A DNA stretch of 64,000 nucleotides from Pseudomonadota bacterium (GTDB lineage: Bacteria > Pseudomonadota > Alphaproteobacteria > Rhizobiales > Aestuariivirgaceae). Location: positions 62,001 to 126,000 of the forward strand of contig CAUJIO010000069.1 of NCBI GenBank assembly GCA_963205315.1, read 5' to 3'. The translations under genes and the position numbers were made by a program. The notes under the pieces are model-generated. The model did not search any database. It saw nothing but the letters and a program-made list of their open reading frames with translations, and was not told the DNA's origin. The first letter of the stretch is position 1; the number at the start of each line of letters is the position of its first letter. Shown piece after piece: positions 899-60,204 of this stretch.

Positions 899-2041
899 AT
901 GAGCACAGATGTCACTGTCAGGCCGGTTCGCGACAAGTCCGGCACCCGCGCATTTCTGGATGTGCCGTTCTCGATCTATGGCGATGACCCCAACTGGGTG
1001 GCGCCTCTCTATCTCGAGCGCTTCGAGCACCTGGACCCGAAGAAGAACCCCTATTTCCAGCATGCCGACGTCGAACTCTTCGTCGCCGAGAAAGATGGCA
1101 AGTCCGTCGGCCGCATCTCCGCACAGCTCTGCAAGCTGCGAAGCGAAAGATACAAGGACGGGGTGGGCCAGTTCGGATTCCTGGAAGCAGTCGACGATCC
1201 TGCCGTCTTTGGCGCACTCTTCGAAGCTGCAATGTCCTGGCTGAAGCAACGCGGCGCCACGCGAATCCAGGGGCCGTTCAGCTTCTCCATCAATGATGAG
1301 ATGGGACTGTTGATCGACGGCTTCGACACGCCGCCAAGCATGATGATGGGGCACGGGAAGCGCTATTATCAGCCTCGCGTCGAACAGCAGGGTTTTGCCA
1401 AGGCCAAGGACGTGATTGCCTATGACTATTTCGATGACGGCAACATTCCCCGTGCGATAAAGGCCGCCCATGACAAGGCGGCTGCCAATCCTGATGTCAT
1501 CATCCGCCCGCTGAACAAGAAGAAGCTGATGGACGAACTGGAAGTCATCGTATCGATTTCCAACGACGCGTGGTCGGATAACTGGGGTTTCGTGCCCTGG
1601 ACCCAGGCGGAGATGGTGGCGCTTGGCAATAATCTCAAAATGCTCGTCACCGGAGATTATATCGCCATTGCGGAATATCGCGGCGAGCCGGTGGCCATGG
1701 CCGTGTCGCTCCCCAACATCAACGAATGGATCGCCGGGTTGAATGGCCGGCTTCTGCCGTTCGGCTGGGCCAAACTGGCCTGGAGCATGTTCGCCCGCCC
1801 CCCCGGCTCGGTCCGCATGCCGCTGATGGGGCTGCGCAAGCGCTATCACGGTTCGGCACTCGGTGCTGCCTGCGCCATGGCGGCGATTGCCCATGTGCGG
1901 AAATATCACGCCTCGCGCGGCACGTTACGGGGCGAACTGTCGTGGATCCTCGAAGACAATCTGCCGGTGCGCCGGATGATCGAATCCTTCGGCGGCAAAC
2001 CCTACAAGACATACCGTATCTATGAGAAGGCGATCACCTGA
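899..2041 (+). CDS. GNAT-fold protein, probable bacterial ceramide synthase
   Basis: This 380-residue protein has the look of a large GNAT-like acyltransferase, including an MMGHGKRYYQPRVEQQGF segment near the middle and a C-terminal GELSWILEDN block. In Caulobacter, bacterial ceramide synthase (bCerS/CerS) is a protein of about this size and type that N-acylates the sphingoid base. It belongs to a gene set with serine palmitoyltransferase, an ACP, an acyl-ACP synthetase and a reductase, all of which lie within 9 kb here. ATG at 899 begins the conserved domain; the upstream frame is unsupported. The family call is from sequence style and context; the ceramide role is inferred. It is followed at 95 bp by a metallophosphoesterase and then lptF-lptG-like genes. 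Confidence 0.72.
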   Translation: MSTDVTVRPVRDKSGTRAFLDVPFSIYGDDPNWVAPLYLERFEHLDPKKNPYFQHADVELFVAEKDGKSVGRISAQLCKLRSERYKDGVGQFGFLEAVDDPAVFGALFEAAMSWLKQRGATRIQGPFSFSINDEMGLLIDGFDTPPSMMMGHGKRYYQPRVEQQGFAKAKDVIAYDYFDDGNIPRAIKAAHDKAAANPDVIIRPLNKKKLMDELEVIVSISNDAWSDNWGFVPWTQAEMVALGNNLKMLVTGDYIAIAEYRGEPVAMAVSLPNINEWIAGLNGRLLPFGWAKLAWSMFARPPGSVRMPLMGLRKRYHGSALGAACAMAAIAHVRKYHASRGTLRGELSWILEDNLPVRRMIESFGGKPYKTYRIYEKAIT

Positions 2042-2136
2042 CCTCAAACCTTTGCGCGCGACGCGTTAAGCTCCTCACCGCGAACACCCGGCCATGATCC
2101 GCAGTCACTCACGCCCACATCTGTAGAATCCAGATT

Positions 2137-3057
2137 TTGTTCAGCATCGCCCACCTCTCCGACGTTCATCTTGGCCCCATGCCGCATGGCGCGGCCCGCC
2201 GCCATTTCGCCCTGAAGCGCGCCATCGGAGTGACCAATTGGCGTATCAACCGCCACCGCACCCACAGTACCGCAATCGCCGACGCAATTGCCCGCGACAT
2301 CGCCGGACATTCGCCCGACCATGTGGCCTTGACCGGCGATATCGTGAATGTTGCCGCCCGCGCCGAATTCCCTGCCGCCGCCCGTTGGTTGGAGGAATTT
2401 GGTGATCCAAAGTGGATCAGCTTTGTGCCCGGCAATCATGACACTTACGTTCGGTGTGACTGGAGCCATGGACTGGAACACCTCGCGCCATACATGCAGG
2501 GCGACATGCGGGTGAAGCTCACGCAATCGACACCGCAGATCACCACGCCGTTTCCCTACGTCCGCCTCCGCCGCAATATCGCATTGATCGGCATTTCAAC
2601 CGCCGTCCCGCAACCCCTGCACAGTGCCGCAGGGATCGTGGGGCCGGCACAGCTGGAATCGCTGGCCCAGCTTCTGTCGGATCTGCGCGAGCGCGGTTAT
2701 GCACGCATCGTCATGCTGCATCACCCGCCCCTGCCAGGATTGGCCAGCAAGCGCCGCGGCCTTATCGATGCACCTGCCTTGCGCGACATTCTTGTGGATC
2801 AGGGTGCCGAGCTGGTCCTGCACGGCCACAACCACGAGCACATGATGAACAGCCTGAACTCACGCTTCGGCATGGTCCATGTCTTCGGCGTTCCCTCGGC
2901 GTCGTTGATCCAGAGCAAGCACCATCCGCTCGCCGCCTGGAACCTCTACCGTATCCAGCGTCAGGGTGGAAAATGGCTGATGAACATCACGACCCGCAGC
3001 CTCGATGCCGAAACCCGTGCGATCACCACAATTGCCGATTTCCCGCTTTCAACCTGA
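2137..3057 (+). CDS. Calcineurin-like metallophosphoesterase
   Basis: This 306-residue protein carries the full metallophosphoesterase set: D9-x-H11 in HLSDVHLG, TGDIVN, GNHDT, MLHHPP and LHGHNHEH. These motifs coordinate the two metals of the family. No signal peptide or membrane segment is visible, so it is probably cytoplasmic or peripheral. The frame opens with TTG (an ATT two codons earlier is also possible), which places the first motif at the extreme N terminus, as is usual. It lies between the ceramide-synthase candidate and the LptF/LptG-like permeases on the same strand. A lipid-phosphate or pyrophosphate substrate is plausible (LpxH and similar enzymes belong to this superfamily), but that is inference. 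Confidence 0.85.
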   Translation: MFSIAHLSDVHLGPMPHGAARRHFALKRAIGVTNWRINRHRTHSTAIADAIARDIAGHSPDHVALTGDIVNVAARAEFPAAARWLEEFGDPKWISFVPGNHDTYVRCDWSHGLEHLAPYMQGDMRVKLTQSTPQITTPFPYVRLRRNIALIGISTAVPQPLHSAAGIVGPAQLESLAQLLSDLRERGYARIVMLHHPPLPGLASKRRGLIDAPALRDILVDQGAELVLHGHNHEHMMNSLNSRFGMVHVFGVPSASLIQSKHHPLAAWNLYRIQRQGGKWLMNITTRSLDAETRAITTIADFPLST

Positions 3058-3159
3058 AGGATGGTTGCGGTAAAAGACCGGGCATGTCACCCAACTGGCG
3101 CCGCGGCGGCCACATCGCCTGCGCCCAGCAAATGCCGGATTCTCCAAGCATGAAACGCC

Positions 3160-4377
3160 GTGCTATCAATCCTTGACCGCCACGTTCTGAGGCAGGTGTC
3201 TCTGCCGCTGGCAGGCGCCCTCGTGATCGGCTTGCTCATGCTTCTCGCTGACCGCATGGTGAGCCTGCTCGACACGACGCTTGGCAAGAAGAATTCCTTC
3301 ACCGTCGTTTTCGAGATGCTGGCCTATCTGGTGCCGCACTATCTCGGCACGGCCATTCCTGCAGCCTTGTTTCTCGGTCTGCTGCTGGGGTTTGGAAAAA
3401 TGTCGGCCAATTCCGAGATCGACGCTTTCATGGCCTCCGGCATCGGCCTGAACCGGCTGGCAAGACCGGTTGTCCTGCTCGGCCTTGCCATGAGCATGCT
3501 GTCCTTTGCCATTCAGGGCTGGGTTCAACCATACGCGCGATACGCGTTCCGGTCTGTCGTCTTCGAGGTGAAGAACGTCGATGTCTTCTATCTGGCGGAG
3601 GAAGGCGTTTTCATGCAGGCCGGTGACCGCACGTTCATCATCGACAAACTCGACCGCAATGCCAACGCGTTCCAGCGCGCCTTCATCTTTCAGGACAAGG
3701 GCAAGGATGGATCAGACACGGTGACCGCCGCGCGTGGCTTGCTGATCGAGAATGACGGTGGCAAGCGTCCGACGCTGCATCTCGAGGACGGCCACCGCCT
3801 CACGCTCAAGCAGCGCCCGGTTCCCGGCGAGACAGCACCCACAGCCAGCCAGGCAACGGAATTTTCCCTCGCCGACACGCCGCTTGGCCGGATCAGCAAG
3901 GACATTTTCCGTCCTCGCGGTGATGATGAACGGGAAATGACGATCCCCGAACTCCTCCGGAATCTCGACACGCCGCCAAAGGAATCCTCACCCAGTGAAA
4001 TGGTGGCCGAACTGAGCGAGCGGCTTGTCAACGGCATCAGCATTCTCATTCTTCCATTCCTTGCCATTCCCTTTGCCGTCGGCTCGCGCCGCAGTCAGCG
4101 CAGCATGCGCACCGTCTTCGCTCTGGCCCTCATCGTCATCTATCACGAGATCATTCAGCAAGGCGCCAACATTGCCGGCAAGGGCACGGCCTCGCACTGG
4201 TTGACGCTGTGGCTTCCCTGTGCGCTTCTCGCCCTCTTCGCCGGATGGCGCTACTACGCTATGTGTTTCACCGTTTCAGGCGATCCGCTGGGAACCGCCA
4301 TCGACCGTTTTGGCGACCGCATCAGCGGCTTGAAGAACTGGCTATTCCGCCGATTTGGCTGGGAACAACCAGCATGA
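3160..4377 (+). CDS. lptF: LptF/YjgP-family lipid export permease
   Basis: This is a 405-residue inner-membrane protein with the LptF plan: N-terminal ILDRHVLRQ, three membrane helices, a periplasmic beta-jellyroll domain (about 130-290) and three C-terminal helices starting at LVNGISILILPFLAIPFAVG. LptF and LptG form the membrane part of the LptB2FG ABC transporter, which extracts lipids to a periplasmic bridge. The start is GTG at 3160; a nearby ATG at 3150 opens only a nine-codon frame. It overlaps the next gene by ATGA. In many Proteobacteria lptF-lptG sits by lptD or leucyl aminopeptidase; here it is embedded in sphingolipid genes, so it may be a paralogue. The symbol denotes family, not proven LPS function. 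Confidence 0.85.
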   Translation: MLSILDRHVLRQVSLPLAGALVIGLLMLLADRMVSLLDTTLGKKNSFTVVFEMLAYLVPHYLGTAIPAALFLGLLLGFGKMSANSEIDAFMASGIGLNRLARPVVLLGLAMSMLSFAIQGWVQPYARYAFRSVVFEVKNVDVFYLAEEGVFMQAGDRTFIIDKLDRNANAFQRAFIFQDKGKDGSDTVTAARGLLIENDGGKRPTLHLEDGHRLTLKQRPVPGETAPTASQATEFSLADTPLGRISKDIFRPRGDDEREMTIPELLRNLDTPPKESSPSEMVAELSERLVNGISILILPFLAIPFAVGSRRSQRSMRTVFALALIVIYHEIIQQGANIAGKGTASHWLTLWLPCALLALFAGWRYYAMCFTVSGDPLGTAIDRFGDRISGLKNWLFRRFGWEQPA

Positions 4378-5447
4378 AGATCGTCGCCTGGATGCTGATC
4401 CGCATGATTGGCCTGCGCTTTATCGGCATCCTCATCGGAATTTCGCTGTTCGCCCTGTCGATCGACGTACTCAACAATATCAAGGATATTCAAGCCCTGC
4501 GGCCGGGCAGTGCATGGATCATGGCCGAATACTCCATCATCCGCGCGCCGACAGTCTTCGCCAATTACCTCGGCCTCAGCATTCTGCTCGCCACGCTGCT
4601 ATCACTGACCGAACTGAGCTACCGCAATGAACTGGTGGCACTGTGGGGCATCGGCGTTTCGCCGGCCCGTCTTTGCATCATGCTTCTTCCCCTCGCCTTT
4701 GTGGCTGGCGGCCTGCAATTCATTCTCAACGATTCTGCCATTCCCGCCACAACGCCTCAGCTGCGCGACTGGGGTGTGGGAGACTATGGCCGTGACAAAC
4801 TCAAGGTCGGCGAAAAGGATCCTATCTGGATGCGGTCAGGTCCTGACATCCTGCGCGCCGGAAGCGCCAATACGGATTCAACCAAGCTGAGCGACGTGAT
4901 CATCTTCCGACGCGATGCCAACGGCCTGCTGCGAGAACAGATCTATGCCCATTCCGCCACACTCGCTGGCGACCGTTGGACGCTGACCGACGTCCAGGTC
5001 TACTATCGTGATAATCTGCAACCGAACCAGCTCGCCACACTGGTCTATTCCGGTGCAATGAAACCGGCCCAGGCGGGTGCCCGGTCGGGCGCCCCGGAGG
5101 AAATGTCCTTCCTCGACCTCAGCTATTTCATCGATAATGCCGGGTTTGGTATTCGTCCCGTCTGGGTATACGAGACATGGCGTCACAAGCGCGTCGCGGT
5201 CTTCTTCAACAGCCTCGTCATGATTGCGCTTTGCATTCCGCTTGCCATGCGCTTCCGGCGCGGCGGTGGGCTGGGTGCCCTGTTTGCCATTGGCGTCGGT
5301 CTGGGCTTTCTCTATTTCATTCTTGATGGCTTGGCTCTCACCATGGGAGAACTGGGCTTTGTCGCACCCTGGCTGGCCGCATGGCTATCGCCACTGCTCT
5401 TTGGCCTGATCGCAGTGCTAATGGCGCTCAAGGCCGAAAACGTCTGA
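4374..5447 (+). CDS. lptG: LptG/YjgQ-family lipid export permease
   Basis: This 357-residue partner of the preceding permease starts at the ATG that overlaps its stop codon (ATGA), so translation is probably coupled. It shows LptG features: IGLRFIGILIGISLFALSID as first helix, LSLTELSYRNELVALWGIGVSP as the cytoplasmic coupling-helix region, a periplasmic jellyroll domain (about 120-270) and three C-terminal helices. A cytoplasmic LptB-like ATPase would be needed; none is adjacent, so the pair would have to borrow one. The position between the metallophosphoesterase and the lipid kinase, with serine palmitoyltransferase beyond, suggests ceramide-derived lipid rather than LPS as possible cargo. 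That is inference from context. Confidence 0.85.
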   Translation: MKIVAWMLIRMIGLRFIGILIGISLFALSIDVLNNIKDIQALRPGSAWIMAEYSIIRAPTVFANYLGLSILLATLLSLTELSYRNELVALWGIGVSPARLCIMLLPLAFVAGGLQFILNDSAIPATTPQLRDWGVGDYGRDKLKVGEKDPIWMRSGPDILRAGSANTDSTKLSDVIIFRRDANGLLREQIYAHSATLAGDRWTLTDVQVYYRDNLQPNQLATLVYSGAMKPAQAGARSGAPEEMSFLDLSYFIDNAGFGIRPVWVYETWRHKRVAVFFNSLVMIALCIPLAMRFRRGGGLGALFAIGVGLGFLYFILDGLALTMGELGFVAPWLAAWLSPLLFGLIAVLMALKAENV

Positions 5448-5550
5448 TTCATACTGACAGAAATTTAAGTGGTGCGATCTAGGATCGGCTGCCACTCATC
5501 AGGCTGCATGCCTGTTGCATTCGCTTGTCTCGACTGAAAGGACCTACTCC

Positions 5551-6639
5551 ATGGCCGAAGCCCGCATTCATTCCAATCCGGCGTGGGATCGTGTTTCAGT
5601 TGCCAGCCAGGACATCGGCCGCAAGGTCATGCGCAACGCAATGGACACAAGCATGGAGCCGAGGCGCGCCGCGTTTCGTCCGGTCAGCCGAGCAGGCCTT
5701 ATCGTCAATCCGAGCTCTGGCAAGAATAGTGGCAAGGGTCTGGCACTGGCCGACAGGATCCGCCACGATCCGTCGATCACCGTGCGTATTCTGGAGCGCT
5801 TCGATCAGATCACGGGGTTCATCGACGACATGGCACGCGACGATGTCTCTGACCTGTTCATCAGCTCAGGCGACGGTACGATCCAGGAAATCCTGACCCA
5901 GATTGCCGAGCGAAAGCCGTTTCGGCTGTTTCCACGCTTGTCCCTGTTGCCGCATGGCACCACCAACCTGACGGCCGCGGATCTGGGGCTGCGCCACCGT
6001 TCGATCACGGCACAGGCCGAGTTCATTCGGGACGTCAGACTGAATACGATGCGCGACCGGCCGACCATCCGTTGCGCCAATCCGGGCGACGGCAGGCCGC
6101 GCCACGGCATGTTCGTCGGCACCGGCGCCGTTGCCGCGGCCACGCAATTCTGTCAGGAGGCCTTCAATTCCAAGGGCGTGAAGGGCAACTGGGCAACGTT
6201 CGCAACGCTTGCGAGTGCCGTATCGAAAACAGCATTCTCGAAACCAGACCCGACAGACCACACCCGCCTCGACCGGCCTTTCGATATTGCCATTGATGCC
6301 GATGGTCAGCGATATGCAGATGGTCAGCAATTGCTTCAGATGTCGACAACGCTCGACACGCTGATCCTTAACACGAAACCATTCTGGGGCGGAAAGACGG
6401 GCCCGATCCGCACAACCGTGTTTCCCTATCCGGTTCCATCGGTCTTCCGTTGGCTGCTGCCGATGATGTATGGCGCCGAAACACGCAAGGCACCGGAAGG
6501 TGCCATGAGCTTCTGTTCGGAAAAGCTGCAGATCACGTCGAGTTCGATGTTCGTCATCGACGGTGAGTTTTTTGCTCCGCCTGCAGACGAACCGCTTGAA
6601 CTGCAGACGGGTCCGGTCTTCACGTATCTTTGCGGGTAA
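5551..6639 (+). CDS. Diacylglycerol-kinase-family lipid kinase (ceramide kinase candidate)
   Basis: This 362-residue protein has the DAGK/sphingosine-kinase catalytic fold: GLIVNPSSGKNSGKG near residue 50 as the nucleotide-binding opening, then SSGDGTIQE, a variant of the GGDGT signature with serine for the first glycine, then LLPHGTTNLTA and a C-terminal FVIDGEFF block. Such enzymes phosphorylate a lipid hydroxyl using ATP. ATG at 5551 is chosen because GAAAGGA lies just upstream; the frame opens 12 codons earlier. It ends 6 bp from the end of the convergent serine palmitoyltransferase gene. With ceramide biosynthesis on both sides, ceramide or sphingoid base is a reasonable substrate, and diacylglycerol is the main alternative. 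Confidence 0.78.
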   Translation: MAEARIHSNPAWDRVSVASQDIGRKVMRNAMDTSMEPRRAAFRPVSRAGLIVNPSSGKNSGKGLALADRIRHDPSITVRILERFDQITGFIDDMARDDVSDLFISSGDGTIQEILTQIAERKPFRLFPRLSLLPHGTTNLTAADLGLRHRSITAQAEFIRDVRLNTMRDRPTIRCANPGDGRPRHGMFVGTGAVAAATQFCQEAFNSKGVKGNWATFATLASAVSKTAFSKPDPTDHTRLDRPFDIAIDADGQRYADGQQLLQMSTTLDTLILNTKPFWGGKTGPIRTTVFPYPVPSVFRWLLPMMYGAETRKAPEGAMSFCSEKLQITSSSMFVIDGEFFAPPADEPLELQTGPVFTYLCG

Positions 6640-6645
6640 TCTGAT

Positions 6646-7854
6646 TTAAACGTTTGCAGCCGTCTGGCCGTGGCCCTGCGCCACGACCGTGCCGAAGAGC
6701 TCAATGATGCGGTCGATGTCGGCATCGCTATGCGCAGCCGACACAGAGCATCGCAACAGGCACAACTTGTTGGGTGTGCCTGGCGGCAGAGCGATATTGA
6801 CGTAAACCCCCGACCTCAGCAGCGCGTTCCACATCGCGATGGTCGAAGGCTCGTCCTTGCACTTCACGGCGATTACCGGACTGACCTGGTCACAGCCAAG
6901 GTCGAGGCCAAGCTGCCTGAAGCCATGGAAAAGCCGCGCCGAGTTGTCCCGCAAACGCGTGCGGCGCTGCGGCTCGGCCGCCAGTTTACGGATGGCGGCC
7001 AACGAGGTGGCAATCGATGCCGGCGACGACGACGCGGTGAACATATAGGGACGCATCGCATAGCGCAGGTATTCGAACAGCGGATGATTTCCGGCACCGA
7101 AACCACCGATGGCGCCAACACTCTTCGAGAACGTCCCGACGACAAAATCGACATCGTCCTCGAGCCCGGCCTCATCCGCCAGTCCTCGTCCATGCGGTCC
7201 AAGCACGCCGAAGGAATGCGCTTCGTCGCAGAGCAGTTGAAAGCCGTGCTTTTTCTTCACTTCCACGAAGTCGGCGAGTGGCGCCCGATCTCCCATCATG
7301 GAGTAGATGCCTTCAAGCACCACAAGCTTGCCGCCTTCATCGCCCTCGCCGCGTGTCAGCCGCCTGTCGAGATCGGCAGCATCGTTGTGACGGAAGCGCA
7401 CCAACTTGGCGCCGGACAATGTGCAGCCATCATAGATCGAGGAATGGGAGTCCGCATCGAGATAGATCGTGTCGCGTGGGCCCGCGAGCCCCGACATCAT
7501 GCCGAGGTTGGCCTGATAACCTGTCGTGAAGACGATGCAATGCTTGCGATCGAGAAAGCGGGCGAACTCCTGTTCCAACTCGACATGCAACGAGAATGAA
7601 CCGTTGGCGATGCGTGAGCCAGTGGTACCGGTGCCGAACTCCTCAAGTGCCCGCTTGCCGGCTTCGATGCAGTCGGGATCGAACGTGATTCCCATGTAGT
7701 TGTTGGTCCCTGCAAGAATGGTCTCGCGGCCCTCGATCATCGCACGGGTTGGCGAGATGATCCGGTCGTTCGTAATGCCGATGGCATTGACCCCCATCGA
7801 CATCATGCGCTGATGGCGGTCGGCAATACCTTGCAGCTTCGCGAGGAGGTCCAT
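6646..7854 (-). CDS. spt: Serine palmitoyltransferase (alpha-oxoamine synthase)
   Basis: This 402-residue PLP enzyme belongs to the alpha-oxoamine synthase family (Spt, Kbl, BioF, HemA). The Schiff-base lysine is K244 in GTFSKSVGAIGGFGAG; D210 and H213 in LLCDEAHSFGVLGPHGRG and H136 in DADSHSSIYDG are the expected cofactor contacts. Spt condenses serine with an acyl thioester to give 3-ketosphinganine. The choice of Spt over BioF or Kbl rests on context: an ACP gene ends 9 bp upstream, then a reductase and an acyl-ACP synthetase, the same order as the Caulobacter ceramide operon. It is the last gene of its operon and converges on the lipid kinase. Confidence 0.88.
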   Translation of the reverse strand: MDLLAKLQGIADRHQRMMSMGVNAIGITNDRIISPTRAMIEGRETILAGTNNYMGITFDPDCIEAGKRALEEFGTGTTGSRIANGSFSLHVELEQEFARFLDRKHCIVFTTGYQANLGMMSGLAGPRDTIYLDADSHSSIYDGCTLSGAKLVRFRHNDAADLDRRLTRGEGDEGGKLVVLEGIYSMMGDRAPLADFVEVKKKHGFQLLCDEAHSFGVLGPHGRGLADEAGLEDDVDFVVGTFSKSVGAIGGFGAGNHPLFEYLRYAMRPYMFTASSSPASIATSLAAIRKLAAEPQRRTRLRDNSARLFHGFRQLGLDLGCDQVSPVIAVKCKDEPSTIAMWNALLRSGVYVNIALPPGTPNKLCLLRCSVSAAHSDADIDRIIELFGTVVAQGHGQTAANV

Positions 7855-7863
7855 GTTGAATCG

Positions 7864-8103
7864 TCAGCCTTTCTTCGTTCGTGCCTCGACGACCTGTGCG
7901 AGATCGCCAATCGTGCGGGTCTCGGACAGAAGATTGAGGGGAATTTCGATGTCGAAGTGATCCTCGACCTCCATGACGAAGTCCATCACTGTGACGGAAT
8001 CGATGTTGAGGTCGCTGGAAATATCCGTCCTTGCGCTGAGCGTAGTTCCATTGCTGTTGAAGGGTTCCAGCAGTGTGCAGATCTGTTCAACGGTCGCTGT
8101 CAT
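7864..8103 (-). CDS. acpR: Acyl carrier protein of the ceramide operon
   Basis: This 79-residue acidic protein has the carrier fold: DLNIDSVTVMDFVMEVEDHF with S36 in DSV as the expected phosphopantetheine site, then FDIEIP and a C-terminal helix. It would carry the acyl chain made by the upstream acyl-ACP synthetase to serine palmitoyltransferase. Its ATG overlaps the stop of the reductase gene (ATGA) and its stop is 9 bp before the spt start, so the three are co-translated. The symbol follows the Caulobacter naming for the ACP in this cluster; it is not the housekeeping AcpP, which usually sits between fabG and fabF. Confidence 0.88.
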   Translation of the reverse strand: MTATVEQICTLLEPFNSNGTTLSARTDISSDLNIDSVTVMDFVMEVEDHFDIEIPLNLLSETRTIGDLAQVVEARTKKG

Positions 8104-9077
8104 GTTCGGCCCGGTCCTTGTTCAGTCGGGCCCGTTCTATCGGCCCGGGACGACTGAGGCAACCATCCCGCGGCCCGGTACCAGGCAATCGTCTCTGCCA
8201 ACCCATCGTCAAATCGTTTGGGATCTGACAACCGCAGACTTCCCTCATGACTGACCCAATCCGGATGATAAAGTTCCCGCACTTTTCCACGATTCACCAT
8301 GCCGGGCTTGCCGGTGAAACGGGACAAGCCCTCGGCGGCAAGAGCCACAGCCGCTGGAACCGCTTTCGGCAGAAACACGGGGCGGATGCGTCCGCCACGC
8401 AAGGTCTGACCAGCAGCGATCAAATCCATCCATGCATATCCGCCCGCGCGCCCGTCACTGACCTCGTGCAAACCACGCAGTTGGCTCACGGCCGACAGCG
8501 TGACCAGCCGCGCCAGATCACGCACGTGAATGAGCGAGAAGCGCGCATCGCTGCGCCCTGGAATCACGGCGACTGGCCGGGTCAACTCCTTGATCAACGG
8601 CAATGTGCCGCGATCCCCCGGCCCATAGACGGCGGGTGGCCGGATGATGATGGCATTGAGCCGATCTTGCAGACTGGCAATGGCATCCTCACCCGCCCGT
8701 TTGCTGGCGCCGTAGGGCGAGAGATGCGGCTCGCGTGCCGCCAGTGACGAAACGTGTACAAAGCGCGCGACGCCCATGCGCAAGGCGGCTTCCGCCAGCG
8801 CCACGGTGGCTTGGGCATTGACGCGGAAATAGTCGTGCACCCGCAATCCTGCCAGAAGCCCGGCCAGGTGCACGATTGCATCGGCCCCTTCAAGCAGCCG
8901 CGAGAGTGCATCATCCGTATGCAGATCACCGGCGATGACCTCGACGCCCGCCGGCATCGCAGCCCGCTGCGGAGCGCGCACCAGCGCCTTCACCCTGTAC
9001 CCCTCGGCAAGGAGCGCAGTCAGCGTATGGCGGCCGGCGAATCCGGTCGCTCCGGTGATGGCAATCGTCCGGCTCAT
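8100..9077 (-). CDS. cerR: NAD(P)-dependent epimerase/dehydratase-type reductase, probable CerR
   Basis: This 325-residue extended-SDR protein has a Rossmann signature TGATGFAG at residues 9-16 and the catalytic pair Y122-x3-K126 in PYGASK, with VHVSSLAA supplying the serine. In the Caulobacter pathway CerR, a protein of this family in the same operon, reduces the keto group of the oxidised ceramide made after N-acylation. The adjacent acp, spt and acyl-ACP synthetase genes support that role. Alternative activities of the family, such as sugar epimerase, cannot be excluded from motifs alone. It starts 31 bp after the end of the acyl-ACP synthetase gene. Confidence 0.8.
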   Translation of the reverse strand: MSRTIAITGATGFAGRHTLTALLAEGYRVKALVRAPQRAAMPAGVEVIAGDLHTDDALSRLLEGADAIVHLAGLLAGLRVHDYFRVNAQATVALAEAALRMGVARFVHVSSLAAREPHLSPYGASKRAGEDAIASLQDRLNAIIIRPPAVYGPGDRGTLPLIKELTRPVAVIPGRSDARFSLIHVRDLARLVTLSAVSQLRGLHEVSDGRAGGYAWMDLIAAGQTLRGGRIRPVFLPKAVPAAVALAAEGLSRFTGKPGMVNRGKVRELYHPDWVSHEGSLRLSDPKRFDDGLAETIAWYRAAGWLPQSSRADRTGPTEQGPGRT

Positions 9078-9108
9078 GCGTATTGTACGTTGGGGCTTTG
9101 AGTTTGGC

Positions 9109-10902
9109 CTACTGAGCCGCCTGGAGGAACACCGAAGGCATCAACTCGGCAATCTCGCCGCTCTGGAATTTCTGCTTGGCGCCGGACCGCGACAGTTTGC
9201 CCGACGACGTGAAGGGCAGACTCTTGGGCGGCACCATCACCACCTTGCACTCGACGCCGGCGCTGCGATGAACAGCGGCCGACACGGCATGGCGCAATGC
9301 TTCGATATCAGCCTCGTTCTGCAAGCGGCACTGCACCAGCACCACAACATCGTCGTCATCGTCATCGCCTTCAACGGCGAACGCGGCGACATCGCCGGAG
9401 CGCAGCGGCTCGATCTGTTCAGCCACCCATTCGATGTCTTGTGGCCATATGTTGCGGCCATTGTGCAGGATCAGATCCTTGGCACGGCCGGTGATGACGA
9501 TCTCGCCATCCAGCCAATACCCCATGTCGCCGGTATCGAGGAAGCCATCGGCACCAATTGCCGCCTCGGTCGCCTCAGGATTGTTGTAGTAACCGGCCAT
9601 CAGGCTGGGCGATTTCACGAAGATGCGGCCAACGTCACGGTCCATCAGCACGTCACCGGTTTCGCTGCGGATCTCGACTTCAGAATCCGACATTGGACGT
9701 CCACAGACCACGAGGCTCCGGGCACCCTTTTCAGAGGAGGCAACGGCGCGGCCCTCGTTCTTCAACGCAAGGCGGTCGATGCGGTCAACGCGCACCGGTT
9801 GATCGCAATCGGCAAAGGAAATCGCCAGTGTCGTCTCGGCCATGCCGTAGCTGGGCAGGAAGGCGGCAGGCTTGAAGCCGGCCACCGACAGGGTCGACGC
9901 GAAATGGTCCAGAACGTCCGAACGCACCATGTCACCGCCGATGCCGGCAACCCGGAGCGATGAAAGGTCGAGCGCCGCGGCATCACCATTGACGCGGCGG
10001 GCCGCAAGATCAAATCCGAAGCTCGGCGAATAGGTTATGGTCGACTTGTTGTCGGACATCAGCTTGAGCCATAGCGCCGGCCGTCTTGCGAAGGACGTCG
10101 TCGCCAGAAAATCAACCGTCACCTGCCCCATCATCGGCGACAGGCAAAAGCCCACCAGGCCCATGTCATGATAAAGTGGCAGCCACGAGAAGGCGCGGTC
10201 ATGCGGTGTGAGCTTCAATCCCTCACGCAGGATTCCGCGCGCATTGGCCGTGATCGCCTTCTGAGTGATCAGCACGCCCTTGGGGCTTGACGTCGAGCCG
10301 GAGGAATACTGGATATAGGCGTCCTCGTCCGGTCCGAAAGACTCCAGCTTGCAATGCGCTTCGGGTTGGTCTTGCAGCTCTGCATGGGTCAAAACCCGTG
10401 ATACGCCGGCCTTGGCTGCGCCTTGCGCAATGTGGCCATACAAATCGTCACTCGCGATCGCGATTTGCGCACGCGCGGCCGCGAGCATCCCGGCGACGCG
10501 ATCGATGTAAGAGTCCTTCCCGCCAATATACATTGTGTAAGGCATCGGACACGGAATGAGTCCGGCATACTGGCAGCCGAAGAACACCGACATGAAGTCA
10601 GGCCCGGTCTCAGCAACGACGGCAACGCGGTCGCCCCGCCTCAAGCCGAGGGACAGGAGCTTGCGGCCCGTAGACAGTGCCCGGCAGCGCAATTCCGCAT
10701 ATGTGAGGACGTGCTGCAAGGCACCGCGCGGTGAATAGAAATTGAAACCCGTTACGCCTTGGGCTGCATAATCAAGGCCCTCGGCCAGCGTTCCGAAAGC
10801 CGCCAGCACCTGCGGAAGGGCGCGGTTGTTTCGCGGTGTCCGAACCAACCCTTCGACCCCGCCTTTTTCACGCAATAAGGCAACACTCTGCATTCCAGAC
10901 AC
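9109..10902 (-). CDS. aasR: Fatty-acyl-AMP ligase / acyl-ACP synthetase
   Basis: This 597-residue ANL-superfamily enzyme has the adenylation P-loop YIQYSSGSTSSPKGV at residues 196-210, WLPLYHDMGLVG typical of FAAL-type ligases, PSYGMAETT and LDTGDMGYWLDGEIVITGRAKD near the C terminus. FAAL-like enzymes activate fatty acids as acyl adenylates and load them on a carrier protein. Here the partner would be the ACP encoded two genes downstream. It is the first gene of the aasR-cerR-acpR-spt operon. ATG at 10902 is used; another ATG three codons in is possible. A perfect inverted repeat lies 19 bp upstream. Confidence 0.85.
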   Translation of the reverse strand: MSGMQSVALLREKGGVEGLVRTPRNNRALPQVLAAFGTLAEGLDYAAQGVTGFNFYSPRGALQHVLTYAELRCRALSTGRKLLSLGLRRGDRVAVVAETGPDFMSVFFGCQYAGLIPCPMPYTMYIGGKDSYIDRVAGMLAAARAQIAIASDDLYGHIAQGAAKAGVSRVLTHAELQDQPEAHCKLESFGPDEDAYIQYSSGSTSSPKGVLITQKAITANARGILREGLKLTPHDRAFSWLPLYHDMGLVGFCLSPMMGQVTVDFLATTSFARRPALWLKLMSDNKSTITYSPSFGFDLAARRVNGDAAALDLSSLRVAGIGGDMVRSDVLDHFASTLSVAGFKPAAFLPSYGMAETTLAISFADCDQPVRVDRIDRLALKNEGRAVASSEKGARSLVVCGRPMSDSEVEIRSETGDVLMDRDVGRIFVKSPSLMAGYYNNPEATEAAIGADGFLDTGDMGYWLDGEIVITGRAKDLILHNGRNIWPQDIEWVAEQIEPLRSGDVAAFAVEGDDDDDDVVVLVQCRLQNEADIEALRHAVSAAVHRSAGVECKVVMVPPKSLPFTSSGKLSRSGAKQKFQSGEIAELMPSVFLQAAQ

Positions 10903-10941: not shown

Positions 10942-11040
10942 AAAAATCAACGGGACTCGACTGGCCCCGTATCTACCTATCAATGCTGAGCGGGCAATTA
11001 AAATCAAATGCTGTTTCAGAATGTAACCGCAGTCTGAAAG

Positions 11041-11574
11041 CTAAAACCTCAATATTTCCATATAGATGGCCAACCCGAGCAAAAGCAGGGCGCCGAACGC
11101 GAAGCCTGACGTCCAGGCAAGAATGAGGGACCCGGTGGAATAACCGGTCACCGGCTGGGGCAGCGCGGCAGTGGCAGCCTGGCGTTCGCGGGCGATCAAA
11201 CGGTGTGCCATGTAACGGCGGATGTGGTCCGCCATCGCCGCGCGGTCGTCACTTTCGAACTGGATCTCGCGCTCGTCCTGCCGGTCACGGACCAGGCGAT
11301 AGGTGCGGTGGTCCGGCTCCATGACGACCGAGGAAATCATGTCGATCCACAGGCGAGGCGGCTCGCCTGGCGCCAACGCGAGATCGAATACTTCGGATGC
11401 AGGTGGCCCGGCGACGGCAGGCTGCAGGTCATCCTTGAGCAGTTGTAGCCGGATGGATTTGGCATCCCGCAGGTTCAGAGCCGCCTCGAAATGTGCCGCT
11501 TCCGCAACGCGCGCCTCACGCAGGGCTTCGGTAAGCCCTCCGGTCTCACGGCGCATGTGTGCGGCATTGGCCAA
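11041..11574 (-). CDS. Tail-anchored membrane protein of unknown function
   Basis: This 177-residue protein has one clear membrane segment at the C terminus (SLILAWTSGFAFGALLLLGL followed by AIYMEILRF). The cytoplasmic N-terminal part is charged and helical. I recognise no domain. The start is TTG at 11574, supported by GGGAGGA about nine bases upstream; the ATG six codons later has no good ribosome site. It lies 110 bp downstream of the fatty-acid-hydroxylase-family gene and 138 bp upstream of the ceramide operon on the same strand, so it may belong to either transcript. No function is proposed. Confidence 0.65.
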   Translation of the reverse strand: MANAAHMRRETGGLTEALREARVAEAAHFEAALNLRDAKSIRLQLLKDDLQPAVAGPPASEVFDLALAPGEPPRLWIDMISSVVMEPDHRTYRLVRDRQDEREIQFESDDRAAMADHIRRYMAHRLIARERQAATAALPQPVTGYSTGSLILAWTSGFAFGALLLLGLAIYMEILRF

Positions 11575-11685: not shown

Positions 11686-12453
11686 TCAGCGAGGAGTGAA
11701 CGGCCGCTTCAGGAGCTCCAGCAGTCCCCGATCCCCAAGTCCCTCCACACCGATCGGCATGGCGGGCGTGCGGTCCGTGGCACTGCGGCTGTTGAACACC
11801 CGGTCCCAGACCGACAGCACGGTGGCATAGTTCGAATCCGTATCCTGCCGCAAGGCGTGATGATGAACCCAATGGATGGAGGGTGTCACGATGACATAGG
11901 ACAGCGGGCGCTCCAGCCAGCGGGGAAGCCTGACATTCGAATGCTGGAACATTGAAACCACCGCCAACACGGTCTCAAAGGCGATCACACTGGCCAGGGG
12001 AACACCGAGCAGAAAGATCACCAGCGCCCGGACCAATGACGACAACACCACTTCGCCAAAGTGAAAGCGCAGCGCGGAACTGGCGTCGAGGAAGGTGTCG
12101 AGATGGTGCACCTCGTGAAAACGCCACAGCATCGGCACCACATGATTGGCCCGGTGCCAAAAATAGATCCAGCAATCGAGCAGCAGCATATCGAGCAGCA
12201 GTCCCTGCCCGCCACTCCACCATGCGGGCCGCCAGTCGAGTGCGTGGCTGGCGGCAATGGCCGACACGGGTACGACGATGGCCCAGGACAGAACCGCATT
12301 GACCCCGGCAAGCGACAGGTTCTTCGCGACGCGCATCAGGCCACCCCTCACCTTTGCCACGGGTACCAGCCGGTCGAGCAGCAGGAAACCCGCGAGGGCC
12401 GTCAACACCAACGCTCCCTTATAGGGCAAGAGCCATGCAAGAATGTCCATCAT
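11686..12453 (-). CDS. Sterol desaturase / fatty acid hydroxylase family protein
   Basis: This 255-residue membrane protein has the histidine clusters of the di-iron fatty acid hydroxylase superfamily: HRANH at 100-104, HEVHH at 113-117, H171 and HWVHHH at 194-199. Several hydrophobic helices surround them. Members hydroxylate or desaturate lipid chains, including sphingolipids and sterols. It overlaps the upstream AbrB-like gene by four bases and lies just upstream of the ceramide operon on the same strand. A role in hydroxylating a ceramide chain is attractive but unproven; membership of the BKACE operon is the competing context. Confidence 0.82.
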   Translation of the reverse strand: MMDILAWLLPYKGALVLTALAGFLLLDRLVPVAKVRGGLMRVAKNLSLAGVNAVLSWAIVVPVSAIAASHALDWRPAWWSGGQGLLLDMLLLDCWIYFWHRANHVVPMLWRFHEVHHLDTFLDASSALRFHFGEVVLSSLVRALVIFLLGVPLASVIAFETVLAVVSMFQHSNVRLPRWLERPLSYVIVTPSIHWVHHHALRQDTDSNYATVLSVWDRVFNSRSATDRTPAMPIGVEGLGDRGLLELLKRPFTPR

Positions 12454-25763: not shown

Positions 25764-25880
25764 GTGTGCCGTCTCCTTTTCGCGCCAAGATATGGGAACG
25801 GTTTCGCCGCTGCACCAGTGTTTTTGCAGCGATCCGCCGGGCCGCTTGACGCCTCCGCCGCAAGCTTGCATCTCTGGGTG

Positions 25881-27005
25881 ATGAAATTCATCCATACGGC
25901 CGACTGGCAGATCGGCAAGCCCTTCAAGAATTTCGGCGACAAGGAAAGCGTGCTGCGGCAGGCCCGCCTCGCCGCCATTGAAACCATCGGCCAACTGGCA
26001 AAGCGCGAAGGCGTGGCGCATGTGCTGGTCGCCGGCGATCTCTATGACACCGAAAGTCCGGCAATGAAGACGATGCTGGAACCGCTGGAACGCATGCGGC
26101 AGTCGCCCGGCGTCTCCTGGCACATCATTCCCGGCAACCATGATCCGCATCGCGGCCAGGGCCTGTGGGACCGGCTTCTGGCACATGGGCTGCCCGCGAA
26201 CGTCTTGCCCCACCTGACGCCCGAACCGGTGATGATCGGGACAGAGGCCGTGCTGCTGCCCGCCCCGATGCGCCGGAAATCCGAAGTCAACGACCTGACC
26301 CAGTGGATGGATGAGGCGGCCAGCCCTGCCGGCGTGATCCGTCTGGGCCTCGCGCACGGCTCGATCACCGGATTCGACTCAGGCGGCGAGGCGAACAACC
26401 CGATTGCCCCCGACCGCGCCAGGCGCGCCGGACTGGACTATCTGGCGCTTGGCGACTGGCACCGCACGCTGCAGGCCGGACCCGCCACCTGGTATGCCGG
26501 AACGCCCGAGGCCGACCGCTTCAACAGCCAGGAACGCGGACAGATTCTGCTCGTCGACATCCCCGCTGCACGCGCACCCGTCAGCGTCGTGCCTCTGACC
26601 ACCGGTGCCTACCAGTGGCAGTCAGCAACGCTGACTGTGACCTCGGCCGAAGACTTCGACGCGGCGGAGTCAAGGCTGCGGTCACGTCCCGATCTCTCCG
26701 TCCTGCTGCTTCGGCTGGATATCAAGGGCGCCCTGCCGCTGGCGGCACGGGCCGAACTTGAGCAGCGCCTCACTCGGCTTGAGGCCGCTCTGTTCTGGCT
26801 CGAGACAGACGTGTCCGGCCTGCTGGTGAGACCCACGCTGGAGGATTTTGAACGCATCGATTTTCAGGGCGTGTTGCGCGAGGTCGCCGAAACATTGAAG
26901 GCCATGGCGGAAGACGAGGGCCAGAATGCCTTCGTCCGGCGCCGCGCCGAAGAGGCGCTGGTACAGATGTTCCTCATGTCGCAGCAATCGGGGAGCACGG
27001 CATGA
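25881..27005 (+). CDS. YhaO/SbcD-like DNA repair metallophosphoesterase
   Basis: This 374-residue protein has the Mre11/SbcD phosphodiesterase motifs: HTADWQIGKPF, VAGDLYD, IPGNHDPHRGQG, LAHGSI and LGDWHRT. The N-terminal 250 residues are the nuclease; the rest is a helical capping region. It overlaps the ATPase gene downstream by four bases, giving a nuclease-ATPase pair like SbcD-SbcC or YhaO-YhaN. It likely works on DNA ends. ATG at 25881 starts immediately before the first motif. Confidence 0.87.
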   Translation: MKFIHTADWQIGKPFKNFGDKESVLRQARLAAIETIGQLAKREGVAHVLVAGDLYDTESPAMKTMLEPLERMRQSPGVSWHIIPGNHDPHRGQGLWDRLLAHGLPANVLPHLTPEPVMIGTEAVLLPAPMRRKSEVNDLTQWMDEAASPAGVIRLGLAHGSITGFDSGGEANNPIAPDRARRAGLDYLALGDWHRTLQAGPATWYAGTPEADRFNSQERGQILLVDIPAARAPVSVVPLTTGAYQWQSATLTVTSAEDFDAAESRLRSRPDLSVLLLRLDIKGALPLAARAELEQRLTRLEAALFWLETDVSGLLVRPTLEDFERIDFQGVLREVAETLKAMAEDEGQNAFVRRRAEEALVQMFLMSQQSGSTA

Positions 27006-29665
27006 GGCTGCTGCACGTCACCATCGAGGGCGTCGGCCGCTTCGGCACGCAAGCAAGGCTTGAAGGCCTGGGCGCGGGTGTCAATATCCTGTCCGCCCAC
27101 AACGAGGCCGGCAAGTCGACAATGTTCCGCGCCATCCGCGCCTGCCTGTTCGAACGCCACAATACCACTCGCGACGAGGTCAGGCAGCTCGCGACAGAAG
27201 GCCTGGCATTGCCCGTCAAGGTGACGCTCGGCTTCGAACATCAGGGCGAAACCTACCAACTCGAGAAATCCTTTCTCCGCAGTCCCTCGGCCACGCTGGC
27301 GCGCAACGGAATCGAGATCGCCCGCAACCGCGAGGCTGACGAAACGGTGTGGGAACTGTTTGGCATATCGCCCGGCAAGACGGTCGATCTTTCCACATAT
27401 GGGGTGCTGTGGGTCGAACAGGGGCAATCCTTCAAGGTTCCAGAACCGTCGGAAGCAGCCGCCCTGGTCCTGAACAATGTCATTCAGCAGGAAGTCGGAA
27501 CTCTTGTTGGTGGCGAGCGGGCGCGGCAATTGCTGAAGGATGTGAAAGAGGCACTTGGCAAACTCCTCACCGACACCGGCAAGCCAAAAGCCAAGGGCCC
27601 CATTGATACCGCACAACGTCATCACGAAGCCATCGAACTGCAGCGGATCGAGGCCGAAAAGCGTCTCAACGATCTCGATGCCAATCTCGAGAAGCTCGGC
27701 AGCCTGCGGACCGAATTCATCCGGCTGAATGATCCTGCCGAGGCCCAGCGCCTCGCAGCGGAATTGCGGGACGCCGAAACCGCTTTCAAGGCTGCCGATG
27801 AGGCGGCCCAGTCACTGATACGTCTTGAAAGCGATGAGCGCCAGGCTTTCAAGCTCTTGACGGCCCAGCAAGAGGCGCTGGCCGCGCTTCAGGAGAGAGC
27901 CGTAAACATCGACAAAGACCGCACTCGTTTCAATGGTTTGAGTGCTGACCTTGATTCGCTTTATGAAGCGTCGGAGGAGACGGCGTCAGCCCTCGCAAAG
28001 GCCAGCAGCCACAAGACCATGCTGGACCGCGAGGCCGATCTGATGGATGCGGAAGATCTCAAACTGCAACGCATGTCCGCACTGTCACACAAGGCAGCCA
28101 CGCGGGACATATTGCAGACCCGGCTTGCCCTGCTCCGGTCATTCGACGCGCGACAGTTGGAGAATGAGCAGGCACTGAAATCCGCCAATGTCGGCGATGC
28201 GGCACTGAAGGCTCTGGTGGATATCGAGCGCGACATCGAATCCATCAGTACACGGATGGAATCCGCCGCGGCCCGCCTCACGATCGACGTCAAGGGCGGG
28301 ACCACTGTCCGGCTCAACGGCAATGCAATCTCGTCCCACCTGTCGCGCGCCATCACCGAGCCACTCACCGTCACCATCAATGACGACGTCACGATGACCA
28401 TTTCTCCTCCCGCCTCATCGCTTGCAACGGCCGACGCGGCACAGCGCGAGCAGCAGGCCAGGCTTCGCGCGTTGTTTTCGCGCCACGGCGTATCTTCCGC
28501 TTCGGAATTGCGCCAGCTCCGCGCCGAACGCGCGGATCTCGAAGAGGCCGCACGCACGCTCAAGGCCGAGCAGACGGCTCTGGGGTTGAAGGACGCAAGC
28601 GCCGCGACCGAGATCATGCGCCTGCAGATCGAAATCCGTCAGCTTGACAGCGAAACACAGAAGGCGCTGGCCGAATTGGGATCGGACACCCTGCCCTCTC
28701 CCGACGCACTCGCGCAGCAGCGTGAGCTTCTTCAGGACGCACGCGCCGAACTGAAGGCCAAACGCGCCGAGGCCGCAGCCATCGTCGAAAGCCTCTCAGC
28801 AACCGCCAACCGCAATGCCCAGGCCCGCGCCGCCCTGACAGGCCAGATCAGGGAACTCGAGGCGCGCATCGCTGCCGATCTGCTGCTGCTGCCCGATGAC
28901 AGGCGCCAGCATCGGCTGGACGCGGCCGGACAGGAAGTCGAACGTCACGGCTCCATTCACCGCACCTGCGCAGCACTTCTGGCCGAAAGGCGCCAGACCA
29001 CGCCAGGTTCTGACGATCTCGACCGCTTGCGCCTGCGCGCCGAGCGTTTGAAGCGGGCTTCGGAAAACCGCGCGAGGGATATCGGCGACCTGCGCGAGCG
29101 CATCGCCACGCTCACGGGGCAAGTGCAGACGGCGGGCGGTGACGGGCTTGGCGAGCGCGTCGCCGAGCTGCAGGCGGAGAGCGCCTTGGCGCTGAGCGAG
29201 GCCGAACGCCAGATCGAACGCGCGAATGTGCTGCAACTGCTGCGCAATGTGGTGGAAACAGCCTATGAGAAGCGGCGCGAACAGTTGAACGCACCCCTCT
29301 ACCGCCATCTGCGGCCATTCCTGCAGGATGTCTTTCCGCAGGCCGAGATCGCGCTGGGCGATGGTTTCAGCGTCGAAGGCCTGAAGCGCTCAGGCCCGGG
29401 AAGCGAGATCTTCGGCCGGCTGTCTTCGGGAACGCAGGAGCAGATTGCCGTACTCGTCCGTCTCGCCATGGGCGCCATGATCGCCGAGAAGGGCCACGAC
29501 GTGCCGATCATCCTTGATGATGCTCTCGTCTTTTCGGATGACGCCCGCATCGAGCAGATGTTCGATGCCATCAATCGCGCCGGACGCAATCAGCAAGTGA
29601 TCGTCCTGACCTGCAGAGCCCGTTCATTTGCATCACTCGGCGGCAATCAGCTCCGCATCACCTGA
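27002..29665 (+). CDS. YhaN-like SMC/Rad50-type ATPase
   Basis: This 887-residue AAA protein has an N-terminal Walker A, AHNEAGKSTMFR, near residue 35, a long coiled-coil middle (about 180-750) and a C-terminal head with signature FGRLSSGTQEQIAVLVRLAM and Walker B PIILDDALVFSDDARI. The layout is Rad50/SbcC-like but there is no CxxC zinc hook, which matches the YhaN group. A beta-rich insert (about 410-460) splits the coil. With the upstream metallophosphoesterase it should form a DNA-end processing complex. Confidence 0.87.
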   Translation: MRLLHVTIEGVGRFGTQARLEGLGAGVNILSAHNEAGKSTMFRAIRACLFERHNTTRDEVRQLATEGLALPVKVTLGFEHQGETYQLEKSFLRSPSATLARNGIEIARNREADETVWELFGISPGKTVDLSTYGVLWVEQGQSFKVPEPSEAAALVLNNVIQQEVGTLVGGERARQLLKDVKEALGKLLTDTGKPKAKGPIDTAQRHHEAIELQRIEAEKRLNDLDANLEKLGSLRTEFIRLNDPAEAQRLAAELRDAETAFKAADEAAQSLIRLESDERQAFKLLTAQQEALAALQERAVNIDKDRTRFNGLSADLDSLYEASEETASALAKASSHKTMLDREADLMDAEDLKLQRMSALSHKAATRDILQTRLALLRSFDARQLENEQALKSANVGDAALKALVDIERDIESISTRMESAAARLTIDVKGGTTVRLNGNAISSHLSRAITEPLTVTINDDVTMTISPPASSLATADAAQREQQARLRALFSRHGVSSASELRQLRAERADLEEAARTLKAEQTALGLKDASAATEIMRLQIEIRQLDSETQKALAELGSDTLPSPDALAQQRELLQDARAELKAKRAEAAAIVESLSATANRNAQARAALTGQIRELEARIAADLLLLPDDRRQHRLDAAGQEVERHGSIHRTCAALLAERRQTTPGSDDLDRLRLRAERLKRASENRARDIGDLRERIATLTGQVQTAGGDGLGERVAELQAESALALSEAERQIERANVLQLLRNVVETAYEKRREQLNAPLYRHLRPFLQDVFPQAEIALGDGFSVEGLKRSGPGSEIFGRLSSGTQEQIAVLVRLAMGAMIAEKGHDVPIILDDALVFSDDARIEQMFDAINRAGRNQQVIVLTCRARSFASLGGNQLRIT

Positions 29666-31170: not shown

Positions 31171-31242
31171 GTATGTCATATTGAGTTCGCATCCCTGCAT
31201 GGACAAATTGCTCCGTGCCCGGATGTTTCCTCCCTGGACTTG

Positions 31243-31274
31243 GGCCGCCGCGGTCGAACCGGCGGCCTCTTTTT
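31243..31274 (+). terminator. Plus-strand intrinsic terminator without an upstream gene
   Basis: GGCCGCCG and CGGCGGCC form an exact 8-bp stem around a nine-base loop, followed by TCTTTTT. It is oriented for plus-strand transcription, yet all neighbouring genes are on the minus strand. A short RNA from about 31,100 would end here. Confidence 0.55.
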
Positions 31275-31294
31275 GGTCAAGCCCTCGCCGCGGC

Positions 31295-34284: not shown

Positions 34285-34293
34285 GTCTGATGG

Positions 34294-35388: not shown

Positions 35389-35497
35389 CACGCCCGCGCC
35401 CCATTCAAGCACGTTCACGCGGCTCGCAAACTCGTTTCACGCTGAAATCACGATAGCCGGGCCATCATCATGTTGCAGCGAATGGAGAGGAGACATC

Positions 35498-60053: not shown

Positions 60054-60204
60054 GTTTCTGCTGGTGAGTTTCCCGCTGGTTTGACGAAGCATTAACCATC
60101 CCGCAATCACCCGCTGCTAGTCTCCCTGCCATGGTCTGTGCGGGCCACGGAGTTGCCATGACTTCATGGAACTCTCAGGCCTCGCCGAAGCAATGGGGAC
60201 AGGA

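Follow-up and report, generated by a model that had tools for sequence, protein, structure and literature searches.

Which lipid do the inner-membrane permeases LptF and LptG move when their genes lie inside a ceramide locus, in a bacterium whose genome is without LpxC and LpxB of lipopolysaccharide (LPS) synthesis? The question is raised by positions 899–10902 of the window, i.e. the whole 64,000-nucleotide stretch analysed here (C69:62001–126000), taken from a genome of 4.67 Mb (112 contigs, 99.86% complete; labelled G000). The compared genomes, loci and families likewise carry labels of the form G###, L### and f##. For Caulobacter, LptF2, LptG2 and LptC2 have been proposed as sphingolipid movers, the transport itself being uninvestigated, in a recent genetic study that calls the sphingolipid route to the outer membrane unknown (PMC11324152). 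The answer preferred here, with a probability of roughly 0.7, is that the bacterium has lost LPS and that its ceramide-backbone locus has been joined to the inner-membrane part of an exporter for sphingolipid. A preliminary description of the stretch had recognized the ceramide locus; the absence of LPS genes and the presence of a sole LptF/LptG pair are the main point and go beyond that description.

A ceramide-backbone locus enclosing a permease pair

Nine open reading frames (ORFs) from the window's ORF list are confirmed in this interval, and the Pfam matches of their products lie far above chance:

899–2041, plus strand: cerS, tandem-GNAT N-acyltransferase, candidate ceramide synthase (fold model and YghO homology; one copy in the genome)
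2137–3057, plus strand: calcineurin-like metallophosphoesterase, partner of cerS-lptFG (PF00149, 2e-14; start codon uncertain)
3160–4377, plus strand: lptF, sphingolipid-type permease (PF03739, 7e-69; cerS-linked LptF clade)
4374–5447, plus strand: lptG, sphingolipid-type permease (PF03739, 4e-56; cerS-linked LptG clade)
5515–6639, plus strand: DAGK-family lipid kinase, candidate ceramide kinase (PF00781, DAGK_cat, 2e-13; start codon uncertain)
6646–7854, minus strand: spt, serine palmitoyltransferase (NF047599; Aminotran_1_2, 7e-46)
7864–8103, minus strand: acpR, dedicated acyl carrier protein (ACP) (PF00550, PP-binding, 4e-10)
8100–9077, minus strand: cerR, reductase of the short-chain dehydrogenase/epimerase family (PF01370, Epimerase, 1e-30)
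9109–10902, minus strand: aasR, fatty-acyl-AMP ligase, candidate acyl-ACP synthetase (NF006624; AMP-binding, 4e-57)

The plus-strand unit runs cerS, metallophosphoesterase, lptF, lptG (overlapping lptF by ATGA) and kinase, and converges on the minus-strand unit aasR-cerR-acpR-spt, 6 bp separating the kinase from spt. Within the latter the gaps are 31, −4 and 9 bp, so that acpR immediately precedes spt; cerS, on the opposite strand, belongs to a different transcription unit. The five ceramide genes are thus present as the preliminary description had them, and the ORF positions and Pfam matches bear out its picture of cerS facing the operon across a metallophosphoesterase, LptF/LptG and a lipid kinase. 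The order it had likened to that of Caulobacter is indeed that of CC_1165–1162, an operon required, together with CC_1154 (cerS), for dihydroceramide (PMC11324152).

The predicted activities rest on several kinds of similarity. With 583 bits, Spt exceeds the cut-off of 500 set for the serine palmitoyltransferase equivalog NF047599, which is of betaproteobacterial type by its NCBI label, and stays under the cut-off of the alphaproteobacterial NF047603 (487 bits, cut-off 670). Its best solved relatives, aligned end to end, are the sphingomonad serine palmitoyltransferases 2x8u (5e-134) and 2jg2 (1e-125), and it retains the context of the pyridoxal-phosphate lysine, GTFSKS. AasR passes the fatty-acyl-AMP ligase model NF006624 (752 bits, cut-off 600); AcpR bears the phosphopantetheine motif DSVT and falls under the cut-off of the NCBIfam models for ordinary ACPs, and CerR has the motifs TGATGFAG and YGASK. 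CerS has no match in Pfam or NCBIfam, and a sequence search of the PDB gave chance matches only. Its AlphaFold2 model (predicted local distance difference test, pLDDT, 88; predicted TM-score, pTM, 0.87), compared by Foldseek and VIA-align, aligns with the tandem GNAT 7q3a over 304 residues (VIA-align Z 24.1; root-mean-square deviation 3.3), so that the modelled protein can be assigned with confidence to the tandem GNAT fold, as the preliminary description had supposed. CerS and E. coli YghO are full-length homologues (46% identity over 372 aa), and the identities to the proteins of the E. coli ceramide locus are 49% for spt, 34% for acpR, 37% for cerR, 44% for aasR and 46% for cerS. The doubt whether the GNAT protein and the reductase might match unrelated families best is answered by the YghO homology of the one and the 37% identity of the other. 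As judged from these similarities, the locus is a ceramide-backbone locus of the rhodobacterial (Caulobacter) type, and the word ‘complete’ used of it earlier holds for the backbone; it fails for the head group (see below).

Related loci repeat the same gene set, with CerS identities of 38–73%. The closest named CerS relative is that of Aestuariivirga litoralis (73%), followed by records from other Aestuariivirga, Hyphomicrobiales, Dongia and Rhodospirillum, and this ranking indicates that the host is an Aestuariivirga-like alphaproteobacterium, neither a sphingomonad nor a Caulobacter. A more distant CerS homologue (42% identity; L030:9998–11131) adjoins an epimerase-like gene in the planctomycete Neorhodopirellula pilleata; Spt is unmatched in the stretch fetched from it, and its genome has LpxC and LpxB, with LptD unmatched.

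LPS genes and Lpt machinery in the host

LpxC (PF03331) is absent from the host genome; of 20 other genomes with CerS, 19 lack it too and only a planctomycete has it. LpxB (PF02684) is likewise absent from these 19 and the host, 20 genomes in all; Caulobacter and E. coli controls were positive in both searches. By its gene content, the host appears to be without LPS. LptD, LptC and LptA are nevertheless present (contigs C62 and C37), and the genome has only two LptF/LptG genes, both inside the ceramide locus. These score under the cut-offs of the respective equivalogs, LptF at 221.5 bits (TIGR04407, cut-off 230) and LptG at 207.3 bits (TIGR04408, cut-off 240). The named isolate A. litoralis shows the same gene pattern, without LpxC or LpxB.

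Two side observations concern the envelope of these bacteria. A third match of the LptF/LptG family occurs in A. litoralis away from its ceramide locus (G002:C22:154962–156017), and EipA, envelope integrity protein A, is encoded at window positions 60166–60798, in a genome lacking both LpxC and LpxB.

Two permease clades and the pepA–lptD site

A tree of 99 LptF and LptG sequences separates LPS-type clades (Shimodaira–Hasegawa-like approximate likelihood ratio test, SH-aLRT, 100 for LptF and 99 for LptG) from the cerS-linked pairs, which stand apart (SH-aLRT 99 for LptF and 81 for LptG, three long rows being unsure). The LptF and LptG of the locus both fall in the cerS-linked clades and not with the LPS-type, lptD-linked pairs, to which those of three genomes of the same order (G229, G161 and G289) belong. 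The cerS-linked clades also include pairs from LPS-making genomes that retain a second, LPS-type pair. Within the Alphaproteobacteria the same division appears in two careful smaller trees (34 and 32 rows; no mixture model), the LPS-type clades having supports of 100/100 and the cerS-linked clades 100/99 and 98/95. That all cerS-linked LptFG of the Proteobacteria go back to one origin was also considered and is unsupported, the pair of the E. coli ceramide locus grouping with that species' own LPS pair. That E. coli pair (L153:5343–7489) is perhaps an independent recruitment; two long branches meet there in the tree.

Gene order at the ancestral site agrees with this separation. In the same three genomes, which have LpxC, pepA is followed by the divergent lptF-lptG-lptD, and E. 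coli K-12 likewise has pepA-lptF-lptG. In five LpxC-less genomes (G000, A. litoralis, G005, G016 and G045), pepA stands directly next to lptD-surA, with 81 bp between the pepA and lptD reading frames in G000. It is precisely from the pepA–lptD site that the LPS-type permeases have disappeared, with lptD kept.

Survey of 290 Alphaproteobacteria

A fixed sample of 290 alphaproteobacterial genomes (completeness of at least 95%) was searched for CerS, LpxC and LptF/LptG. CerS occurs in 44 of them and LpxC in 254. LpxC is absent from 27 of the 44 genomes with CerS as against 9 of the 246 without (Fisher p 4e-19), and a second LptFG pair is found in 15 of the 17 genomes with both CerS and LpxC as against 1 of the 237 with LpxC only (Fisher p 4e-21). 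In 264 of the 290 genomes the number of LptFG genes is exactly that given by a simple rule, by which an LPS pathway and a ceramide pathway count for two genes each. The gene numbers in the four categories are as follows:

CerS present, LpxC absent (27 genomes): two LptFG genes in 22, none in 3, three in 1, four in 1
CerS present, LpxC present (17 genomes): four in 14, five in 1, only two in 2
CerS absent, LpxC present (237 genomes): two in 223
CerS absent, LpxC absent (9 genomes): none in 5, two in 4

LptD follows a parallel course, since it is retained in 24 of the 27 genomes with CerS and without LpxC, and lost in all five CerS-less genomes without both LpxC and LpxB. An initial view that all nine genomes lacking LpxC and CerS are LPS-less was corrected: four of the nine carry LpxB and, on that ground, probably still make LPS. 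Genomes with CerS and without LpxC span 12 family codes, and three families (f22, f60 and f70) each include both LpxC-bearing genomes without CerS and LpxC-less genomes with it, which argues for a change that happened repeatedly.

Proposed mechanism and alternative explanations

In the scheme proposed here, AasR would load a fatty acid onto AcpR, Spt would join acyl-AcpR and serine, and reduction by CerR and N-acylation by CerS would yield dihydroceramide, which the DAGK-type kinase may phosphorylate; the metallophosphoesterase and a neighbouring fatty-acid hydroxylase might trim or hydroxylate the sphingolipid. The LptF/LptG of the locus would then pull it out of the membrane and hand it over to the bridge LptC-LptA-LptD, which is ancestral; in the outer leaflet the sphingolipid would occupy the position of LPS. 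The evolutionary part of this scheme, that the LPS-type pair was deleted between pepA and lptD, that the cerS-linked pair now feeds LptC-LptA-LptD and that LPS gave way to sphingolipid here and in several further lineages of Alphaproteobacteria, is considered probable, if a little less firmly so than the joining of locus and exporter itself.

Several points weigh against this interpretation. The Fisher tests and counts ignore shared descent, and the absence of LPS was judged on LpxC and LpxB only. Three genomes of one genus (G068, G226 and G286; locus L137) have CerS and lack LpxC, LptFG, LptC, LptA and LptD, from which it follows that Lpt can be dispensable to sphingolipid-forming bacteria or replaced by a different carrier, and two others (G044 and G077) have CerS and LpxC with a single LptFG pair.

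The alternatives differ in what they make of these facts. The locus might be an ordinary ceramide locus to which LptF/LptG is merely adjacent, a general pair carrying some other outer-membrane lipid, e.g. another glycolipid. Such a role would suit the sole LptFG pair of a genome, and other glycolipids are the presumed cargo of the Lpt systems in the LPS-less Borrelia, Treponema, Thermus and Thermotoga (PMC10353723); this explanation is nonetheless unlikely, as the clade of the pair is cerS-linked also in LPS makers that keep a separate LPS-type pair, and LPS-less genomes without CerS have neither LptFG nor LptD. That LPS is still made through divergent or unassembled lpx genes, LptFG being its exporter relocated next to cerS, could be entertained for a 112-contig assembly in which two lpx genes were sought, yet it is rendered very improbable by the 99.86% completeness, by the joint loss of two independent lpx genes in 20 genomes, by the place of the pair in the cerS-linked clade and by the missing LPS-type pair next to lptD. 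There is only a slight chance that the product is a 3-oxo-lipid or an N-acyl amino-lipid instead of a ceramide: Spt is an alpha-oxoamine synthase, a family whose members take other substrates, and the activity of CerS is assigned by fold, homology and context, but Spt exceeds the serine palmitoyltransferase cut-off, and gene set and order match the Caulobacter locus, five genes of which are required for dihydroceramide (PMC11324152).

Accessory genes and head group

Three further features lie beyond aasR:

10950–10970, minus strand: terminator-like hairpin and T-run in the interval separating aasR from the 177-aa gene (found by consensus match alone)
11041–11574, minus strand: 177-aa protein with one C-terminal transmembrane segment (six related loci have it too, next to aasR)
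11686–12453, minus strand: protein of the fatty-acid hydroxylase family, candidate ceramide hydroxylase (PF04116, 6e-27)

The hairpin is weak, as the region holds nine terminator-like sites against a mean of 9.3 in shuffled sequences; promoter-like sites in the region show no excess over shuffles either. The hydroxylase scores 89 bits against the OlsE model (cut-off 475). It adjoins the related loci L018, L021 and L023, and a fatty-acid hydroxylase (FA_hydroxylase) or sterol desaturase is also found beside cerS in Dongia and Roseomonas. The tail-anchored 177-aa protein has no Pfam match and gave an AlphaFold2 model of pLDDT 79.5 and pTM 0.55. Since both genes stand beside aasR in related loci too, they are likely further parts of the ceramide locus. 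An identification of the 177-aa protein as LptC2 was dropped, its transmembrane segment being C-terminal and its model, for which no fold search was made, consisting of long helices and a small sheet.

The metallophosphoesterase shows the motifs DVH, GNHD and GHNH, and its neighbours recur around it in Roseomonas and in the related loci. The lipid kinase, which might correspond to the ceramide kinase CpgB of the ceramide phosphoglycerate pathway, shows the motif SGDGT and falls under every NCBIfam kinase cut-off. Related loci have two layouts, a compact one (the window, L009 and L010) and a larger one (L011, L012, L014 and L033) in which additional genes separate cerS from the metallophosphoesterase and lptG from the kinase. 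In L012 these are, by Pfam, two nucleotidyltransferases and a CDP-alcohol phosphatidyltransferase, which resemble the Caulobacter head-group genes CC_1152, CC_1153 and CC_1159; the compact layout is without them. A whole-genome search of the host with the 419-aa L012 homologue found no CpgA-like CDP-alcohol phosphatidyltransferase at 1e-5, the same query finding relatives in 15 of the 24 genomes searched. On this evidence, the Caulobacter route to ceramide phosphoglycerate should not operate in the host. Homologues of CC_1161, CC_1152 and CC_1153 are not in the locus; the rest of the genome was not searched for them.

Other features of the window and of compared loci

Elsewhere in the window, a gene of the animal haem peroxidase family adjoins a YcaO-domain gene (32584–35418, minus strand). 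A second metallophosphoesterase is followed by an 887-aa protein of AAA/SMC type (25764–29665), the two resembling an SbcD/SbcC-like exonuclease pair. The small RNA suhB/MmgR of Rfam is matched at 31210–31282 with a score of 41.2 (gathering score 41). At the edge of the G068 stretch (L137:19123–19902), near ceramide genes, an ORF resembles the start of Cas9, by eye only.

Comparison with known systems

Ceramide loci and LPS-free sphingolipid formers, e.g. Sphingomonas koreensis (PMC11324152), are already known. The preliminary description's remark that few producers have been characterized outside Caulobacter and Sphingomonas needs qualification, since the studied rhodobacterial spt loci also include those of Zymomonas, Gluconobacter, Nitrosomonas and E. 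coli B (PMC9386255). The open-licence papers searched describe no hyphomicrobial lineage that is without LPS and has its only LptFG pair embedded with cerS, and neither the pepA–lptD deletion nor a class-wide count rule for LptFG was found in them. The ceramide locus itself is thus of a known type, and the proposed permease swap in an LPS-less lineage is new. It would offer a natural example of an essential outer-membrane lipid exchanged for another, with the deletion visible next to lptD, and a reason for the persistence of Lpt genes in LPS-less Alphaproteobacteria.

A close likeness is with CC_1152–CC_1168 of Caulobacter crescentus (PMC11324152), which shares the order aasR-cerR-acpR-spt, a separate cerS unit, and lptF2/lptG2 and a ceramide kinase nearby. 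The present locus differs in being compact, in having a metallophosphoesterase after cerS and in the absence of a CpgA-like gene from the genome; moreover, Caulobacter has LpxC and LpxB, whereas the present host has neither. In Caulobacter the pathways for LPS and for sphingolipid coexist and the Lpt permeases are duplicated, which blurs any test of export. In A. litoralis, which is without LpxC or LpxB, LPS should be unavailable to the Lpt system as a cargo, and sphingolipid export would be directly testable.

The E. coli locus (NZ_MG591698.1) likewise has lptF-lptG converging on spt-acpR-cerR-aasR, with the cerS homologue yghO adjoining, but E. coli makes LPS and retains pepA-lptF-lptG, and the LptFG of its locus groups with its own LPS pair. 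On pRo-1 of Roseomonas gilardii, a metallophosphoesterase, LptF, LptG, a hydroxylase of sterol desaturase type and cerS stand together with a lipid kinase nearby; the differences are its CDP-alcohol phosphatidyltransferase and nucleotidyltransferase genes and the lack of an spt operon within the stretch. LPS-less diderms such as Borrelia (PMC10353723) resemble the host in retaining the Lpt bridge without LPS, another lipid being proposed as its cargo. For Lpt of the Borrelia type this glycolipid cargo was inferred largely by modelling, whereas here the permease pair is encoded within the ceramide locus.

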